Origin: Verrucomicrobiota bacterium
GTDB taxonomy: Bacteria > Verrucomicrobiota > Kiritimatiellia > RFP12 > UBA1067
DNA: 64,000 bases
Reading direction: 5' to 3'
NCBI GenBank assembly: GCA_023269675.1
Contig: JAHFSX010000023.1
Coordinates: forward strand, 1 to 64,000
Positions 3,874-48,574 of the stretch are shown here, one piece after another. The first letter of the stretch is position 1. Every line of letters starts with the position of its first letter. The notes under the pieces are model-generated. The model saw only the letters and a program-made list of their open reading frames with translations, was not told the DNA's origin and ran no database searches. The position numbers and the translations under genes were made by a program.

Positions 3874-4068
3874 GACCGGCGCGTCAGGCCGCGCCGTGAA
3901 AAGCGCCCGGAGCCGGGCGCACTCAACATGAGAACGTGAGAGAGAGAGCCTGCCCAGCGACCGGCGCGTCAGCCGCGCCGTGGAAAGCGCCCGGAGCCGG
4001 GCGCACTCAACATGAGAGGGAGACGCGCAACGGCGGGCGCGTCAGGCCGCGCCGCGGAAAGCGCCCGC
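3874..4068 (+). repeat. Three-copy direct repeat of about 58 bases
   Basis: Copies at 3874-3932, 3959-4016 and a truncated one at 4031-4068. Each has an internal palindrome (GGCGCG...CGCGCC) and a second one (GCGCCCGGAGCCGGGCGC), ending ACTCAACATGAG. No open frame is preserved, so this is an intergenic repeat cluster downstream of thiN. Confidence 0.75.
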
Positions 4069-4078
4069 AATCCAACTG

Positions 4079-4197
4079 AACCGCAGATTGCCGAATACTG
4101 AACCGCAGAATGTCGAAGTGAATCCCGCCCACGCGAAGTTAAGACTCTTTCCTTCATGATTCGCAACTCATCATTCGTTAATCTGCGGTTCGTTCAG
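4079..4197 (-). repeat. 120-bp intergenic element with inverted ends (copy 1)
   Basis: The ends read TGAACCGCAGA and TCTGCGGTTCGTTCA, inverted relative to each other. The inside contains an ATGAAGGAAAGAG-type core seen on the minus strand. Two more copies lie at 9174-9297 and 9536-9657 in the other orientation. Size, inverted ends and dispersal resemble a miniature transposable element. Confidence 0.65.
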
Positions 4198-4267
4198 GTT
4201 CTGAAACAACTTGTTATTTTTGTCAATGTTGGGCCGTAAGGCGCTAAGACGGACGCGCCAGACCGGC

Positions 4268-6945: not shown

Positions 6946-7316
6946 TTTTCACCACCAAGGCGCCAAGAACACCAAGAACACAAAGGTTGATCTGGGTGAA
7001 AGCTGGAGAAGTAGCTCACCACAAAGACACAAAGTACGCGAAAAACACAAAGTTTAATGTTGGCGAACTGCGGAAAATAGCTAACCACAAAGACACAAAG
7101 TATGCGAAGAACACAAAGTTTAAGTTTGGTGAACTTTGTAAAAGGGGTCACCACCAAGTCACCGAGTGCACCAAGAACACCAAGTTTAAGTGTGGGTGAA
7201 CGCTGGAAAAAAAGCTAACCACAAAGACACAAAGTACGCGAAAAACACAAAGTTTAATGTTGGCGAACTGCGGAAAATAGCTAACCACCAAGAGCACTAA
7301 GAAAACAAGGATGGCG
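6946..7316. repeat. Tandem imperfect repeat of about 68 bp (ACCACAAAGACACAAAG type)
   Basis: Six degenerate units begin near 6950, 7018, 7083, 7149, 7218 and 7283, each starting ACCACAAAGACACAAAG or ACCACCAAG and running into AACACAAAGTTTAA and GGCGAACTGCGG. The unit at 7083 and that at 7283 share the same upstream sequence. There is no spacer-repeat regularity as in CRISPR and no conserved protein frame. AAAG/ACC-rich intergenic repeats of this kind are widespread in environmental bacteria. Confidence 0.8.
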
Positions 7317-8962: not shown

Positions 8963-9173
8963 AAGTGTGTTTCTCTTTCTGCTATGCGTGCTCGGAGAGC
9001 CCGCGCCACCTTTTTCGAGCGCGGCAGACGGCCCAGGCGGTTCGCGTGTCCGGTATTTCTGGAGGGCTCGCGTCCTTGCGAACCGCGGACGGCGGGGACG
9101 CCGTCCCTCCAGATGATGTGTGAGTGCCTTACAAACTAACAACGACAAAAAGAAAGAAGCTGTTTCATGACTT

Positions 9174-9297
9174 GAACGAACCGCAGAGTGACGAATGATG
9201 AGTTTCGAATCATGAAGGAAAGAGCTTCAACTGCGAAAAAGCGGGATTCACTTCGACATTCTGCGGTTCAGTATTCGACGATCTACGGCTCAATTGG
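9174..9297 (+). repeat. 120-bp intergenic element with inverted ends (copy 2)
   Basis: Begins AACGAACCGCAGAGTGACG and includes ATGATGAGTTTCGAATCATGA, an internal near-palindrome, and CGACATTCTGCGGTTCA. Nearly identical to copy 3 and inverted relative to copy 1 at 4079-4197. Confidence 0.7.
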
Positions 9298-9535
9298 GTT
9301 GTGGGCTGGACCCACGTTAGAACAATCCTACTCTAGCGATACCGGCGCAAGCGGTTCGCGTGTCCGGTATTTCTGGAGGGCTCGCGTCCTCGCGAACCGC
9401 GGACGGCGGGGACGCCGTCCCTCCATGTGATGCTGCAGATGATGCTGCGGACGGCGTGGACGCCGTCCCTCCAGGTGATATGTGAGTGCCTTACAAACTA
9501 ACAACGACAAAAAGAAAGAAGCTGTTTCATGACTT

Positions 9536-9657
9536 GAACGAACCGCAGAGTGACGAATGATGAGTTTCGAATCATGAAGGAGGATGGTCAACGGTGAAAG
9601 AGCGGGATTCACTTCGACATTCTGCGGTTCAGTATTCGGCGATCTGCGGTTCAATCA
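9536..9657 (+). repeat. 120-bp intergenic element with inverted ends (copy 3)
   Basis: Same ends and core as copy 2, differing by a few substitutions and the GAGGATGGTCAACGG stretch. It sits immediately downstream of the second sulfatase gene. Confidence 0.7.
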
Positions 9658-15175: not shown

Positions 15176-15314
15176 ACGTTCTCCCTTGTGCTTGGACCGG
15201 CCCGGAAGAGCGTGCAAAGAAACGCCCGACCCCCGCCGGAAGTCGCACTTTTTTAGTGTTGCATGGCAGTATAACAGGAATCAGAAACACCTCAAGCCAA
15301 ACTGCTGCGTTAGA

Positions 15315-15587
15315 GGGTGTGATTCAACTTTGTTGAATCCACGCCCTAAGGAGGAGTTAGAATTTAGGAGTTAGGAATTGCAATGCCATGAAAGTGAACG
15401 TGGTCGCGCGATGCGCGCGAGGCCGTGTTTGTGTCTTTGAGATGAAGTCAAACGGACGGCTCCAAAAATCGGTTCTTCGCGGAAGGGTTCCTCCCTGTCA
15501 AACGCCTCTTTTTCACGGCCTTTTTGCGCTGCCAACTTCTAACTTCTTCTCGGTGCGACTCAGTTTCAACGAAACTGAATCGCACCC
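15315..15587 (+). repeat. 270-290 bp palindrome-bounded intergenic element, copy A
   Basis: Starts with the palindrome GGGTGTGATTCAAC-ttt-GTTGAATCCACGCCC and ends with a related one (15552-15587; GGTGCGACTCAG...CTGAATCGCACCC). Inside the ends are inverted purine- and pyrimidine-rich tracts (GGAGGAGTTAG; CCAACTTCTAACTTC). A conserved core has CGGTTCTTCGCGG and AAGGGTTCCTCC. No protein frame is kept between copies. Its right palindrome lies four bases from the stop of the next gene and may double as terminator. Confidence 0.8.
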
Positions 15588-15591
15588 TCCG

Positions 15592-16788
15592 TTAGAGTTC
15601 GGGCACGGGCGGCACGACGAAGGGCATCCACTTGGCGGGGGGCGGCAAGCCGTCCTCGGGCGCGGCGGTGTTTTTGAGGACCGCGTCCACGAAGGCCACG
15701 GTGCGCAGGCCCTCTTCGACCCGGACGAAGCCGGCGGCGGCGTCCTCGGCGGCGGAGGTCTTGGACTTCGGCGAGGCGAGGCGTTCGGCAAAGGCGCGGT
15801 ACGTGGCGGCCAGGGCGGCGACGTAGGCCGCGTTGTCGCCGAAGGGGGTCGGCTGGACCACCGGTGCGGGCGCCGCGGCCACGCCGCCGGTGAAGAGCTG
15901 CTGGGCGCCGTCCAGGCCGCGCAGGACCAGGCGGTCGGGCTCGCTCTGCGACCAGGTGAGCGCGCCTTTGTCGCCGTAGACCTCGAGGGACAGGCCGCCG
16001 TTGCGGCCGGTGGCGATCTGGCTGGGCAGGAAGACGCCGCGGGCACCGGTCGAGAAGCGGATCAGCATGCTGCAGTCGTCGTCCAGGATGCGGCCGGCCA
16101 CGGTGGGGCGCAGGTCGGCGCACACCTCGCTGACGGTCAGGCCGGTGACCCACTCCGTCAGGTGCAGGCAGTGGATGCCGAGGTCGATGAGGCAGCCGGC
16201 GGGGCCGCAGCGGCGCGGGTCGGCCCGCCAGCCGGCCTGCTTGTTGCCGGCGGTTTCGAGGCGCTGGGCCATCCAGCCGAGCGGGTAGGCGGTGACCACT
16301 TTGCGGACGGTGCCGAGCGCCTTGTCGGTCTGGATCAGGGTACGGGCCTGCCGGAGCATCGGGTAGCCGGCGTGCACGATGGCGATGCCGTAGGCGAGGC
16401 CGCTGTTCTGGTGCTTGCGCGTCAGGTTGAGCGCCTCGTCCATGTTGCAGGTGAAGGGTTTCTCGCTGAACACGGGGAAGCCCGCGTCGATGGAGGACAT
16501 GGCGACCGGATAGTGCATGGCGTTGGGCGCGAGGATCACGACGAAATCCATGCGCTCGTCCGCCGGCAAGGTGGCCTCGCGGCGGAACATGTCGCGGTAG
16601 GTGCCGTAGGCGCGGCGCGTGGGCAACTTCAGCGCCTTGCCGGTCTCGAAGGAGCTTTGGCGCGTGGAGCCGAAAGCGCCGCAGACCAGTTCGACGCAGC
16701 CGCTTTGCTCGATCGCGGCACGGTGGATGCTTCCCATGAACGAATCGTTACCGCCACCGACCATGCCGACACGTGTTTTTTTACTCAT
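15592..16788 (-). CDS. Cytoplasmic Gfo/Idh/MocA family oxidoreductase
   Basis: 398 residues without signal peptide, unlike the other family members here, so it should act in the cytoplasm. ATG 16788 is chosen because homology starts at 'KTRVGMVGGGNDSFMGSIHR'; a GTG at 16803 is possible. Features: glycine-rich NAD(P) loop, 'MDFVVILAPNAMHYPVA', catalytic-lysine motif 'FSEKPFTCNMDEA', and 'CLIDLGIHCLHLTEWVTG' where Asp and His fit the active-site DxGxH pattern. This subclass resembles inositol or scyllo-inositol-type dehydrogenases, but the substrate is open. A 95-base gap separates it from the next gene upstream, so it may be transcribed alone. Confidence 0.9.
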   Translation of the reverse strand: MSKKTRVGMVGGGNDSFMGSIHRAAIEQSGCVELVCGAFGSTRQSSFETGKALKLPTRRAYGTYRDMFRREATLPADERMDFVVILAPNAMHYPVAMSSIDAGFPVFSEKPFTCNMDEALNLTRKHQNSGLAYGIAIVHAGYPMLRQARTLIQTDKALGTVRKVVTAYPLGWMAQRLETAGNKQAGWRADPRRCGPAGCLIDLGIHCLHLTEWVTGLTVSEVCADLRPTVAGRILDDDCSMLIRFSTGARGVFLPSQIATGRNGGLSLEVYGDKGALTWSQSEPDRLVLRGLDGAQQLFTGGVAAAPAPVVQPTPFGDNAAYVAALAATYRAFAERLASPKSKTSAAEDAAAGFVRVEEGLRTVAFVDAVLKNTAAPEDGLPPPAKWMPFVVPPVPEL

Positions 16789-16882
16789 TAGCGTACCCGC
16801 CACCTTCCTGCAACCCGATAGACCCGAGACATTATGTTATGATAGTAACGAATTGTGAGAAAAAGAGGCAACAAGAAAGTTT

Positions 16883-26131: not shown

Positions 26132-26270
26132 CTGTGCTCCAACATAATTTCTGCGCCCCATCGCAAATCTCGGGCAGTGTGCCCGTCCGCGACATCCGCC
26201 CATGTTCAGTCAGAACTTTGACAAGTCCCGCGCGGTCCGTCAAGCGCGGATGCGTGGGGCGCACGCACGA

Positions 26271-26541
26271 GGGTGTGATTCAACTTGGTTGAATCCACAC
26301 CCGAAGGAGGAGTTAGGAGTTGCAATGCCCTGAAAGTGAACGCGTTCGCGTGATGACGAGAGTCCGTGTCCGTGTCTTTAAAATGAAGTCACACGTATGG
26401 CTCCAAGAAACGGTTCTTCGCGGAAGGGTTCCTCCTTGTCTAACGCCCTGTTCTCAAGGTTTTGTGCGCTTCCAACTCCTCAATCCTAACTCCTAAATTC
26501 TCCTTGGTGCGACTCCGTTTCAACGAAACTGAAGCGCACCC
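26271..26541 (+). repeat. 270-290 bp palindrome-bounded intergenic element, copy B
   Basis: Starts GGGTGTGATTCAAC-ttg-GTTGAATCCACACCC and ends with the palindrome GGTGCGACTCCG...GAAGCGCACC. Same inner AGGAGTTAGGAGTTGCAATG, CCAAGAAACGGTTCTTCGCG and CCTAACTCCTAAATTC tracts as copy A, same orientation. It shares no open frame with the other copies. Confidence 0.8.
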
Positions 26542-26675
26542 CACGCACGATCCGTTTGCGGATGCCCTTCCGGGCGCACAACAAACCGGCTTTGTGCGGC
26601 AAACTTCTTTTCAGGCATGAGGGTGCACTGTTCGTTGTGGCGCCGTGAGGCGCCTACAGAGGAAGCGCGCGTGCG

Positions 26676-44570: not shown

Positions 44571-44856
44571 GGGTGCGATTCAGTTTCGTTGAAACTGAGC
44601 CGCACCAAGGAGAATTCAGGAGTTGGGAGTTAGAAGTTGGTAACGCAAAAATGCCGCGCAAAAGAGGCGTTCGGCAAGGAGGAACCCTTCCGCGAACAAC
44701 GTTTCTTGAGGCCATACGTTTGACCTCATTTTGAAGACGCGAACACGGACGATCGAGCATGGTACGAACACGTTCGTTGCCATGGCATTGCAACTCCTAA
44801 CTCCTAAATCCTAACTCCTCCTTCGGGTGTGGATTCAACAAAGTTGAATCACACCC
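44571..44856 (-). repeat. 270-290 bp palindrome-bounded intergenic element, copy C (inverted)
   Basis: Same element on the minus strand: palindrome GGGTGCGATTCAG...CTGAGCCGCACC at 44571-44606 and GGGTGTGGATTCAAC-aaa-GTTGAATCACACCC at 44825-44856. The core reads, in reverse complement, CAAGAAACGTTGTTCGCGG and AAGGGTTCCTCC. It lies between divergent genes and about 40 bases before the coding region's leader begins. Confidence 0.8.
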
Positions 44857-45010
44857 GGGCGGAGGGCGCGCGAAACAACGGGCTTGTTGGCGGGGGCGGG
44901 GGAGGTGTATGCTGTCCGCCATGATCAGTGATCGGTTTCGGGGTGGCTCTCACGTGGGCCGGCGCGTCGGGGGGACGTGCGGAACCGGATCGCAAACGAA
45001 GGGGGAGAAG

Positions 45011-46372
45011 ATGAAGCAGGTCTCACGGCGGGAGTTTTTGCGTACCGGTGCGGCGGTCGCGGGCGCGGTGTCTTTGGCGGGTTGTTCCAGCGTTCCGATC
45101 GCGCGGGCATCGCGGCTTCGCAAGACGGGCGACAAGCTGAACATGGCGTTCATCGGTTCCGGCGGGCGCGGCGGTTCGAACCTCAAGGAGTTCTACGAGC
45201 TGGGCGAGCAGGTCGTGGCGCTGTGCGACGTCGACCGCGGGCGCCTCGACCATGCCGCGGGCGCGGTCAAGGCGCGCTGCCCGGACGTGCGGAAGTATCA
45301 GGATTTCCGCGAGCTGCTGGCCCAGGAGAAGGACCTCGACGCGGTGGTCGTCTCGACGCCGGACCACATGCACGCGGCGGCGGCCATCGCGGCCATGAAG
45401 CAGGGGTGCCACGTGTACGTCGAGAAGCCGCTGGTGCGGACCGTGTGGGAGGTGCGCCGCTTCGAGGAGGTCGCCAAACGTTGCGGCGTGGTGACCCAGA
45501 TGGGCAACAACGGCAACGGCACGGACGCGCAGCGCCGCAAGATCGAAGTCGTGCAGTCGGGCGTGCTGGGCGAGGTGTCGGAGATCCATGTCGCCACCGA
45601 CCGGCCGATCTGGCCGCAGGGGCTCGTCCGGCCCGCGGGCAGCGACCCGGTGCCTCCGGAACTGGCCTGGGAGTGCTGGCTCGGCGTCGCGCCGGAGCGG
45701 CCCTTCAAAAAGGACGTCTACCACGCCTTCAAGTGGCGCGGGTGGTTCGATTTCGGCACGGGCGCGATGGGCGACATCGCCTGCCACAGCATGAGCTTCT
45801 TCTTCCGCGCGCTGAAGCTGCGCGAGGTGCTGACCGCGGAGACGGTGAAGACGACCGAGAAGTTTTCCGAGACCTATCCGGCCGCGACGACCGTCAAGCT
45901 GACGGTGCGCTCCGACGGCCAAAGCAAGCCCATCGCCGTGTACTGGTATGACGGCAACACCAAGCCCGGCGCCGAGGTGTGCCCCAAGGCGGTGGCCACG
46001 TGGGGCAGCATGCCGGGCGGCGTGATGATCATCGGGGAGCGGGGGACGCTCAGCAACGACGCGGTCTGCATGAAGGACGACGCGAAGTTCCGCGGGATCG
46101 CCCAGCACGACGCGACCAAGGATGTTCCGGTGACGCTGCCGCGCGTCAAGAGCCACCACTGGGAGTTCGCCGAGGCGGTCCGCGGCGGGGCCAAGCCGTA
46201 TTCGCACATCGACCACTCCGTGCCGCTGACCGAGCTGGTGCTGCTGGGGTGCATCTCGCAGCGGGTCGCCGGCGAGCTGAAATGGGATGCGGCGGCCTGC
46301 CGCTTCACCAACAGCGCCGAGGCGAACCGGCTGCTCAAGCCGTATGTCCGCGACGGCTGGCAGATCGGATAA
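45011..46372 (+). CDS. Tat lipoprotein Gfo/Idh/MocA family oxidoreductase
   Basis: 453 residues; GGGGGAG before ATG 45011. The signal has the twin Arg ('SRREFLRTGAAVAGAVSLAGC'), and 'SLAGC' is a good lipobox, so the protein should be exported folded and then lipidated at Cys. The Rossmann domain begins 'LNMAFIGSGGRGGSNLKEFY' with 'VVALCDVDRGRL' and 'DAVVVSTPDHMHAAAAIAA', catalytic-lysine motif 'YVEKPLVRTVWE' and 'QMGNNGNGTDAQRRKIEVV'. The C-terminal domain has 'WFDFGTGAMGDIACHSMSFFF' (His). Periplasmic membrane-anchored sugar or sugar-acid dehydrogenase, substrate unknown. Upstream lies element copy C. Confidence 0.91.
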   Translation: MKQVSRREFLRTGAAVAGAVSLAGCSSVPIARASRLRKTGDKLNMAFIGSGGRGGSNLKEFYELGEQVVALCDVDRGRLDHAAGAVKARCPDVRKYQDFRELLAQEKDLDAVVVSTPDHMHAAAAIAAMKQGCHVYVEKPLVRTVWEVRRFEEVAKRCGVVTQMGNNGNGTDAQRRKIEVVQSGVLGEVSEIHVATDRPIWPQGLVRPAGSDPVPPELAWECWLGVAPERPFKKDVYHAFKWRGWFDFGTGAMGDIACHSMSFFFRALKLREVLTAETVKTTEKFSETYPAATTVKLTVRSDGQSKPIAVYWYDGNTKPGAEVCPKAVATWGSMPGGVMIIGERGTLSNDAVCMKDDAKFRGIAQHDATKDVPVTLPRVKSHHWEFAEAVRGGAKPYSHIDHSVPLTELVLLGCISQRVAGELKWDAAACRFTNSAEANRLLKPYVRDGWQIG

Positions 46373-46382
46373 AGGGAGCTCT

Positions 46383-47290
46383 GGCATGCGGGCGAGGGAC
46401 GCTCGGGCATGCGGGCGAGGGACGCTCGGGCATGCGGGCGATGCGGACGAGCTTTTTGCCGCCTGCGGCGGACGGCGGATACGCCTCAAAAATCTAAGTC
46501 CGCCCTGCCCGCATGCGCTTCGCTTTTTGTGTGGGGAGAGAAGACAGACGGTTACGGGACGCGGTCGACATGCGCTGCGCTTTTTGTGTGGGGAGAGAAG
46601 ACAGACGGTTACGGGACGCGGTCGACATGCGCTGCGCTTTTTGTGTGGGGAGAGAAGACAGACGGTTACGGGACGCTCGGGAATGCGGGCGATGCGGACG
46701 AGCTTTTTGCCGCCTGCGGCGGACGGCGGGTACGCCTCAAAAATCTAAGTCCGCCCTGCCCGCATGCGCTTCGCTTTTTGTGTGGGGGAGAGAAGACAGA
46801 CGGTTACGGAACGCTCGGACATGCGGGCGATGCGGACGAGCTTTCTGCCGCCTGCGGCGGACGGCGGATACGCCTCAAAAATCTAAGTCCGCCCTGCCCG
46901 CATGCGCTTCGCTTTTTGTGTGGGGGAGAGAAGACAGACGGTTACGGGACGCTCAGACATGCGGGCGATGCGGACGAGCTTTTTGCCGCCTGCGGCGGAC
47001 GGCGGATACGCCTCAAAAATCTAAGTCCGCCCTGCCCGCATGCGCTTCGCTTTTTGTGTGGGGAGAGAAGACAGACGGTTACGGGACGCGGTCGACATGC
47101 GCTGCGCTTTTTGTGTGGGGAGAGAAGACGGACGGTTACGGGAGGCTCGGGCATGCGGGCGATGCGGACGAGCTTTTTGCCTCCTGCGGCGGACGGCGGA
47201 TACGCCTCAAAAATCTAAGTCCGCCCTGCCCGCATGCGCTTCGCTTTTTTGTGGGAGGGGGACGGGGGCGGGACGCACGCGCTTCGCGTT
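46383..47290 (+). repeat. Composite tandem-repeat array
   Basis: It opens with two 23-bp units (GGCATGCGGGCGAGGGACG...) at 46383 and 46406. Then come five long units of about 137 bp starting near 46429, 46682, 46819, 46956 and 47152, containing GCCGCCTGCGGCGGACGGCGG, CTCAAAAATCTAAGTCCGCC and CGCTTCGCTTTTTGTGTGGGG. Between some of them are 57-bp units (GCGGTCGACATGCGCTGCGC...) at 46561, 46618 and once near 47086. Open frames run through in several phases because the units are GC-rich and one has a 1-base length change; I do not regard them as genes. Confidence 0.85.
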
Positions 47291-47474: not shown

Positions 47475-48317
47475 ATGAACACACGGCGGCAGTTTATGTT
47501 CAAGGCGGGGTGCGCGTGCGCGGCCCTCGCGGCGGTGCGCGGCCAGGCCGCGACGGAGATCGGCTCGAAGCGGATCCCGGTCGGGCTGCAACTCTACTCG
47601 TTCCGCAAGCAGGGCGAGAAGGACTTCGCGGGGATCATCAGGAAGGCGGCGGAGATCGGCTTTTCGGGCGTGGAGTTCGCAGGCTACGGGCCGTACGGCG
47701 ACAAGCCGGCGGAGCTGCGCAAGCTGCTCGACGGCGCGGGGCTCAAGGCGTTCGGCACGCACACGGGCTACAATCTGGTGATGCCGGAGCAGATCCGGAA
47801 GACGATCGACTTCCACCAGACGATCGGCTGCGCGTACATCATCGTGCCGTGGATCGACCCCAAGCAGCTTGAGAGCCGGGAGGGCTGCCTCAAGGTCGCG
47901 GAGATCCTGACGCGCGCGAGCGAGACCGCGCAGGCCGCGGGCATGAATCTCGGGTACCACGCGCACGGCGGGGACTTCAAGAAGATTGACGGCGACCTCA
48001 CGGCCTGGGAGCTGCTGTTCGACCATACGCCCCAGGCGTTCATCCACCAGATCGACTTCGGCAACTGTCTGGGAGGCGGGGGCGATCCCTACAAGCTGGT
48101 CGAGCGCTATCCCGGACGTTCCCTCAGCGTGCATCTGAAGGAGCACGGCGGTCCGCAGGGAGCGGTGTTCGGCCAGGGCGTGGTGGACTTCAGGCGGGCG
48201 CTGGCGCTCTGCGAGACGGTCGGCGGCACGACCCGCTACATCGTCGAGCACGAGAGCGACCCCGAGCACGCCTTTGAGACGGCGAAGAAGTGCCTCGACT
48301 ACCTCAAGGCGCTCTGA
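47475..48317 (+). CDS. Tat-exported sugar phosphate isomerase/epimerase-like TIM-barrel protein
   Basis: 280 residues with signal 'NTRRQFMFKAGCACAALAAVRG', twin Arg included. The barrel resembles hydroxypyruvate/xylose-isomerase-like enzymes: 'IPVGLQLYSFRKQGEKDFAGIIRKAAEIGFSGVEFAGY', 'FGTHTGYNLVMPEQIRKTI', 'GCAYIIVPWIDPKQLESREG', 'GMNLGYHAHGGDFKKI' (His pair), 'FIHQIDFGNCLGGGGDPYKLVERYPGR', 'SVHLKEHGG' and final 'YIVEHESDPEHAFETAKK' (Glu). Metal ligands look intact. It follows a Gfo/Idh/MocA gene on the same strand beyond the repeat array, the same pairing as at 12.8-15.2 kb. Confidence 0.86.
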   Translation: MNTRRQFMFKAGCACAALAAVRGQAATEIGSKRIPVGLQLYSFRKQGEKDFAGIIRKAAEIGFSGVEFAGYGPYGDKPAELRKLLDGAGLKAFGTHTGYNLVMPEQIRKTIDFHQTIGCAYIIVPWIDPKQLESREGCLKVAEILTRASETAQAAGMNLGYHAHGGDFKKIDGDLTAWELLFDHTPQAFIHQIDFGNCLGGGGDPYKLVERYPGRSLSVHLKEHGGPQGAVFGQGVVDFRRALALCETVGGTTRYIVEHESDPEHAFETAKKCLDYLKAL

Positions 48318-48321
48318 AAAA

Positions 48322-48437
48322 TTTAGGAGTTAGGAGTTAGGAGTTAGGAGTTAGGAGTTAGCCCGCAGCCCGCGGAGCGGGGGCAAACGGCGGGGTGCCT
48401 TTTTGAACGATTAAGATTAAGATTAGGATTAAGATTA
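48322..48437 (+). repeat. 7-bp (TTAGGAG) and 6-bp (ATTAAG) tandem repeats
   Basis: About five units of TTAGGAG at 48322-48360, then GATTAAGATTAAGATTAGG at 48409 on. The TTAGGAG tract resembles the inner tract of the palindrome-bounded element. Confidence 0.75.
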
Positions 48438-48537
48438 CGAAGGGTTCCAGATCCCTCCTAATCGTAATCAGGTTGAAGTGATCGCCAGGGAGCGGGGAGC
48501 CCGGAGGCGGGCTCCTCCAAAACTCCCGGCTTCGAAC

Positions 48538-48574
48538 GGGTGCGATTCAAGTCAAACGGAACTGAATCGCATCC
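48538..48574. repeat. Solo palindrome of the 270-290 bp element
   Basis: GGGTGCGATTCAAGTC-aaac-GGAACTGAATCGCATCC, a degenerate copy of the end palindrome at 15552-15587, four to five bases beyond the citrate synthase stop codon. It may be a remnant of a fourth copy and may work as terminator. Confidence 0.6.

Follow-up and report, generated by a model that had tools for sequence, protein, structure and literature searches.

A hairpin-ended MITE of an uncultured Kiritimatiellae bacterium that probably inserts at a defined distance upstream of sigma70 promoters

Results

Structure of the repeat in the window

The window, meaning the whole 64,000-nt stretch of DNA analysed here, contains three copies of a non-coding repeat and a composite block that ends in one of its palindromes (Table 1). 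The three copies lie at the positions given in the initial annotation and align end to end with a mean column identity of 87%. Its description of the unit was accurate as well. The ends are palindromes, of 32 bp on the left (GGGTGTGATTCAACTTTGTTGAATCCACACCC) and 36 bp on the right (GGTGCGACTCAGTTTCAACGAAACTGAATCGCACCC); the inner purine/pyrimidine tracts are inverted to each other, and the unit folds back on itself (z −4.4 and −8.7); no reading frame is kept, the copies differing by 7- and 14-bp indels. In order, the unit comprises the left hairpin, a purine tract, a variable core, an inverted tract and the right hairpin. In each end hairpin the terminal repeat is followed, on its inner side, by an inverted copy of itself, and the purine tract is built of 7-bp units (AGGAGTT AGGATTT...). 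The tract lengths step mostly by 7 bp, with the two sides varying independently of each other (Spearman 0.004).

Table 1. Coordinates of the repeat copies and of associated features in the 64,000-nt window.
Feature	Position	Strand	Remark
MITE copy 1	15315..15587	+	273 bp, GGGTG...CACCC
Left target-site duplication of copy 1, TGCGTTAGA	15306..15314	.	8/9 match to the right one
Right target-site duplication of copy 1, TCCGTTAGA	15588..15596	.	overlaps the stop of a Gfo/Idh-type gene (15592-16803, -)
Left end palindrome of copy 1	15315..15346	+	outer terminal repeat and inner inverted copy
Right end palindrome of copy 1	15552..15587	+	
MITE copy 2	26271..26541	+	271 bp
Left target-site duplication of copy 2, CACGCACGA	26262..26270	.	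perfect
Right target-site duplication of copy 2, CACGCACGA	26542..26550	.	perfect
Predicted -35 box TTGACG	26238..26243	-	exactly 27 bp beyond the copy 2 left end; weak -10
MITE copy 3, inverted	44571..44856	-	286 bp; no recognisable 9-bp duplication (4/9)
Predicted -35 box TTGTTG	44884..44889	+	exactly 27 bp beyond the copy 3 left end
Predicted -10 TATGCT for the copy 3 -35 box	44908-44913		upstream of a Gfo/Idh-type gene
(TTAGGAG)n purine tract	48318..48359	+	directly 3' of the stop of ORF 47475-48317; start of the composite fragment
Module B, second dispersed repeat	48360..48484	+	match 48362-48469; also inside 420-450-bp MITE variants
End-type palindrome	48538..48574	+	without 9-bp duplication; closes the composite block

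The last palindrome of Table 1 had been taken for a solo end. It actually closes the composite block, which also comprises the (TTAGGAG)n tract and a second dispersed repeat that we call module B, and has no 9-bp duplication. Module B is about 150 bp long (CCCGCCGCCCGCGGAGCGGG...GATTAAGATTAGGATTACG...TCGTAATCCTAATC...TTGAAGTTATAGGCAAG); 97 first-look candidates were collected, and about 40 places in the genome were scored (loci L156-L175). Many stand-alone copies of module B follow closely on a stop codon, with the next start codon a short way downstream, and the pairing of its purine/pyrimidine stem is slightly above that of shuffles. Long MITE forms of about 420–450 bp carry module B in the left tract (L063, L064, L139, L140, L144, L051, L055 and L127), while in L155, also a long form, module B is inverted and located in the right tract. 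It looks as if the MITE and module B families recombine at their shared TTAGGAG tracts.

Several other repeats were seen. One MITE copy (L065, ~690-868) is interrupted by another short element, whose inverted arms are GC-rich (GTAGGGACGCCTCCC...) and which may have a 4-bp TCTA duplication around it. The window also holds six 211-nt units within a coding stretch (46318-47249), three 101-nt units (6993-7293), and another dispersed repeat of ~135–160 bp in direct and inverted orientation (4063-4221, 9085-9219 and 9447-9581; 84–98% alike).

Copies across the genome and in other genomes

The Kiritimatiellae genome containing the window is a 6.33-Mb draft assembly of 85 contigs with a completeness of 94.8%. 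Among the matches listed for this genome, the end pattern has 147 hits and the reversed pattern, used as a control, has 0; for the core the corresponding figures are 55 and 0. The occurrence of the repeat is far beyond chance. After the flanks were collected, 85 elements or fragments were delineated, one of which is the block of the window at 48288-48574. This leaves at least 84, where three copies plus a fragment had been counted from the window, and 55 of them run end to end. The complete copies are 177–451 bp long (most of them 259–293 bp, five 428–451 bp and three 177–245 bp). They are short and non-coding, recur many times in unrelated surroundings, and are bounded by the terminal inverted repeats GGGTGTGATTCAAC and GGGTGCGATTCAGT.

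In a species-level genome collection the exact end pattern was found in 37 stretches, all of them from Kiritimatiellae/'Lentisphaerae' MAGs except for one contig filed under Armatimonadota. When up to one mismatch is allowed, 14 of the 288 genomes of the class carry the pattern, its own genome included. Beyond that genome, the core was found only in a 277-bp element on the Armatimonadota-filed contig (L085, 6101-6377), which is 70% identical to the consensus and has a perfect 9-bp duplication; its presence there could be due to horizontal transfer or to a mis-binned contig. In G034 and other genomes, the same ends enclose unrelated cores and other tracts (AGAATCC), in elements of 213–233 bp that also have 9-bp duplications. 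Some forms are very short, with lengths of 55 and 96 bp. Searches of a plasmid collection and of viral contigs gave no match.

Target-site duplications

The element ends were fixed by alignment at GGGTG...CACCC before the flanks were scored. The 9-mers that flank the element have a mean identity of 78% and are perfect repeats in 25 of the 55 complete copies; duplication lengths of 5–8 and 10–13 stay at the level of the permuted-flank control. In the copies with at least six of nine duplication matches, the left and right 9-mers disagree at 5.4% of positions; the mean divergence of the elements themselves is 9.7% when measured against the consensus and 6.9% against the nearest neighbour. Apart from these direct repeats, the flanks of the copies are mutually unrelated. 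The repeat is a transposable element, a MITE with a target-site duplication of fixed length. The initial annotation had offered a MITE with long complex ends as one possible reading and target-site duplications as a way of checking it, and the 9-bp duplications bear it out.

The sole genome of the same genus (G001) does not contain the family, and no clean empty site was found there. The PPDK and AsnRS genes flanking one copy stand on different contigs in G001, and ten joined sites gave homologous genes and no alignable junction.

Position relative to predicted promoters

A total of 135 element–genome junctions, belonging to 82 elements (74 left and 61 right ends), were tested with a sigma70-like promoter score, the threshold being the top 1% from distances 60–114. 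The promoters are predicted from an E. coli-like consensus and are not mapped start sites. At 39 of the 135 junctions, compared with 1.35 expected, a −35 box begins exactly 27 bp away from the element (P = 5e-45); at 26 bp it is found in 16/135 and at 15 bp in 13/135 (P = 1e-9). A comb of 13–17 and 26–28 bp takes in 73/135 ends, versus a mean of 11.5 (maximum 23) for the shifted comb, and at least one end is phased in 67 of the 82 elements. The same register emerges from a check that is free of any promoter model, with the trinucleotide TTG standing at offset 27 in 25/135 ends (P = 1.5e-21). Copies 2 and 3 of the window have their predicted −35 boxes at this distance, and for copy 1 the sigma70-like scoring gave an unambiguous call at neither 15 nor 27 bp. 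Other MITEs of relatives are phased as well (21/52 ends, versus 2–6 in shifted controls).

The 27-bp spacing is commoner at the left end (28/74) than at the right (11/61; P = 0.013). Between co-directional genes the phased end mostly faces the promoter of the downstream gene, the left end being the phased one at 14/16 '--' sites and the right end at 6/7 '++' sites, which provides an independent check. Moreover, it is true genome-wide that the copies abut gene ends or divergent promoters, as had been noticed in the window: among the 55 complete copies, 28 have divergent neighbouring genes and 23 co-directional ones, and none stands between convergent genes (0/51, versus 21% of the intergenic length as measured in the window; P = 8e-6). 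Promoter-directed insertion would account for this location at gene edges.

Transposase candidates

Neither an ISKra4 transposase nor an autonomous relative with the same ends was found in the genome of the MITE, a draft that is 94.8% complete. Two candidates were examined and rejected. A 5.4-kb end pair on contig C85, regarded as a possible autonomous copy, turned out to be two half-copies around ordinary genes, namely those for an oxidoreductase and a repeat-rich protein. The only transposase of the genome with a DDE_Tnp_1 domain (PF01609) is IS1182-like, and the ends of this copy are unrelated to those of the MITE.

Among 162 genomes of the order, 44 have ISKra4-family transposases, and the flanks of these genes were searched for inverted ends and 9-bp repeats; the family assignment was verified against NCBIfam for three loci (L110, L114 and L124). 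Six complete ISKra4 insertion sequences of 1.8–2.0 kb were obtained from relatives, all with perfect 9-bp duplications. The predicted −35 box lies 27 bp away in four of them, and 13 and 17 bp away in the other two. GGGTG ends, a partial match to those of the MITE, are present in two of the six, and the remaining four begin with GGGCGC. Over 25 positions, the inverted repeats of the two with GGGTG ends, L124 and L114, agree with the MITE ends at 16–17 and 15–16 positions, respectively (shuffle P <0.0002 to 0.008). In a genome of the same family, an ISKra4 relic (L199) has an end that starts with GGGTGTGATTCAA, which is the first 13 bases of the MITE left end; this end is without duplication. 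In another genome (G022; L110, 909-3526), an ISKra4 transposase unit ending in CACCC is followed by exactly 9 bp and then by an 825-bp element with no obvious gene, which starts with GGGTGTGATTTTATTTCGTTGATTC and matches the MITE left end at 21/25 positions.

Discussion

Proposed mechanism

We propose, with a probability of roughly 0.87, that the MITE is moved in trans by an ISKra4-type transposase and is inserted at a defined distance upstream of sigma70 promoters. The transposase would recognise the terminal repeat of ~25 bp (GGGTGYGATTCARYTTNGTTGAAWC); in the MITE, an inner inverted copy follows this repeat and extends it to an end hairpin. Guided by promoter-bound polymerase, it would insert the element with a 9-bp stagger, mainly 27 bp and less often 13–17 bp from the −35 box on its upstream side, and preferentially with the left end turned toward the promoter. 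Contact with RNA polymerase as the targeting cue is an idea proposed for TnGBS (PMC3942029), and we infer that it may apply here as well. The partner transposase, presumed to act in trans and absent from the assembly, may have been lost from the genome or may be missing in the draft. Because the promoter itself is left intact, an element upstream of it would do limited harm, and its effect on the host gene is probably near neutral.

The two modes of insertion are ~12 bp apart, near one helical turn, and, to judge from the spacing, this fits a complex held on one face of the DNA. It is conceivable, though we would put it somewhat below even odds, that the transposase reads the promoter-bound holoenzyme and uses registers of 15 and 27 bp (with 27 dominant) on a single helical face, and that in addition any two end hairpins could serve as transposon ends and capture unrelated DNA. 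Each hairpin contains two inverted copies of the terminal repeat, and therefore any two hairpins could act as ends; such capture would explain why the same ends surround different cores in different species.

Alternative explanations

Duplications of 8–9 bp are also made by other transposase families, and the MITE might be moved by one of them, for instance ISLre2, IS5/IS903, IS1 or an IS256-like family. ISLre2-type enzymes have the same promoter preference (PMC3942029), and this assembly yielded no ISKra4 gene. However, the six ISKra4 insertion sequences of relatives share both the 27-bp and the 13–17-bp spacings, ISKra4 ends resemble the MITE ends, and the sole PF01609 transposase of the genome is the IS1182-like one with unrelated ends. 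Mobilisation by another family is thus improbable.

It is very unlikely that the repeat is a useful structured RNA or a bidirectional terminator with a hairpin–stem–hairpin fold under selection, as the initial annotation had also allowed. A strong single-strand fold is indeed predicted (z −4.4 to −9.5), both for the MITE and for elements of relatives that have the same plan and another sequence, and the plan recurs with unrelated cores. The pairing is conserved, but covariation does not clearly support it: the RNAalifold covariation term is almost zero (0.04), and compensatory changes are weak, with 6 pairs being only slightly above the 2.8 in shuffles. The tract lengths of the two sides are also uncorrelated. 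The fold may be a mere by-product of the inverted repeats, because the ends and the tracts are inverted. When the window was compared with Rfam at gathering thresholds, two tRNAs were the only hits, and the repeat matched no known family. Finally, the element is placed ahead of predicted promoters, and none of its intergenic copies stands between convergent genes, the proper place of a bidirectional terminator. Apart from the fold, such a role finds no support.

Ordinary segmental duplication of one intergenic region had been the expectation if the repeat were confined to one genome, showed no compensating base changes and had no empty sites; the core is essentially confined to one genome and no clean empty site was found, but the 9-bp target duplications in mutually unrelated flanks rule it out.

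Significance

The usual view is that MITEs are intergenic because insertions elsewhere are lost. Most copies in this genome can be read as targeted, given their single-base spacing from predicted promoters and a side consistent with gene direction. If moved by an ISKra4-type transposase, the MITE gives a sequence-only, genome-wide readout of the integration sites of a Mutator-like transposase, helps to tell targeting from selection, and in effect marks the promoters of an uncultured bacterium. It would also tie hairpin-ended repeats with different cores across Kiritimatiellae to one transposase group.

Comparison with known systems

REP/BIME sequences and their RAYT transposases likewise involve palindromes in intergenic DNA. 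To our knowledge, RAYT-type mobilisation makes no target duplications, unlike the present element with its 9-bp duplications. Bacterial MITEs such as Nezha, Chunjie, QMITE2 and MITEAba12 are similarly short, non-coding and intergenic, with a stable fold, inverted ends and direct repeats (PMC10969869); unlike them, the element described here has end hairpins of 32–36 bp and inverted heptamer tracts. The papers searched contained no case of a MITE with promoter-phased insertion.

Such insertion is known from other elements. The TnGBS conjugative elements and the ISLre2 family (p-MULT 3) resemble the MITE in their oriented insertion at a fixed distance upstream of −35 boxes; they differ from it in a spacing of 15–17 bp, a stricter orientation, their autonomy and a different transposase family. 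According to Guerillot et al. (PMC3942029), p-MULT elements make 8–9-bp direct repeats, and TnGBS, ISLre2 and several ISKra4-group elements insert ~16 bp (13–17) upstream of the sigmaA −35 box; only promoters within 30 bp were counted, and a dominant 27-bp register was not reported for ISKra4 or TnGBS targeting in that study. The ISKra4 group (p-MULT 4, Mutator-like DDE; PMC3942029) shares with the MITE the terminal repeats starting with GGG, the 9-bp direct repeats (six members tested) and insertion at a fixed spacing upstream of sigma70/sigmaA promoters. In contrast to this group, the MITE is without a transposase, its ends are hairpins, and its main spacing is 27 bp rather than about 16 bp.
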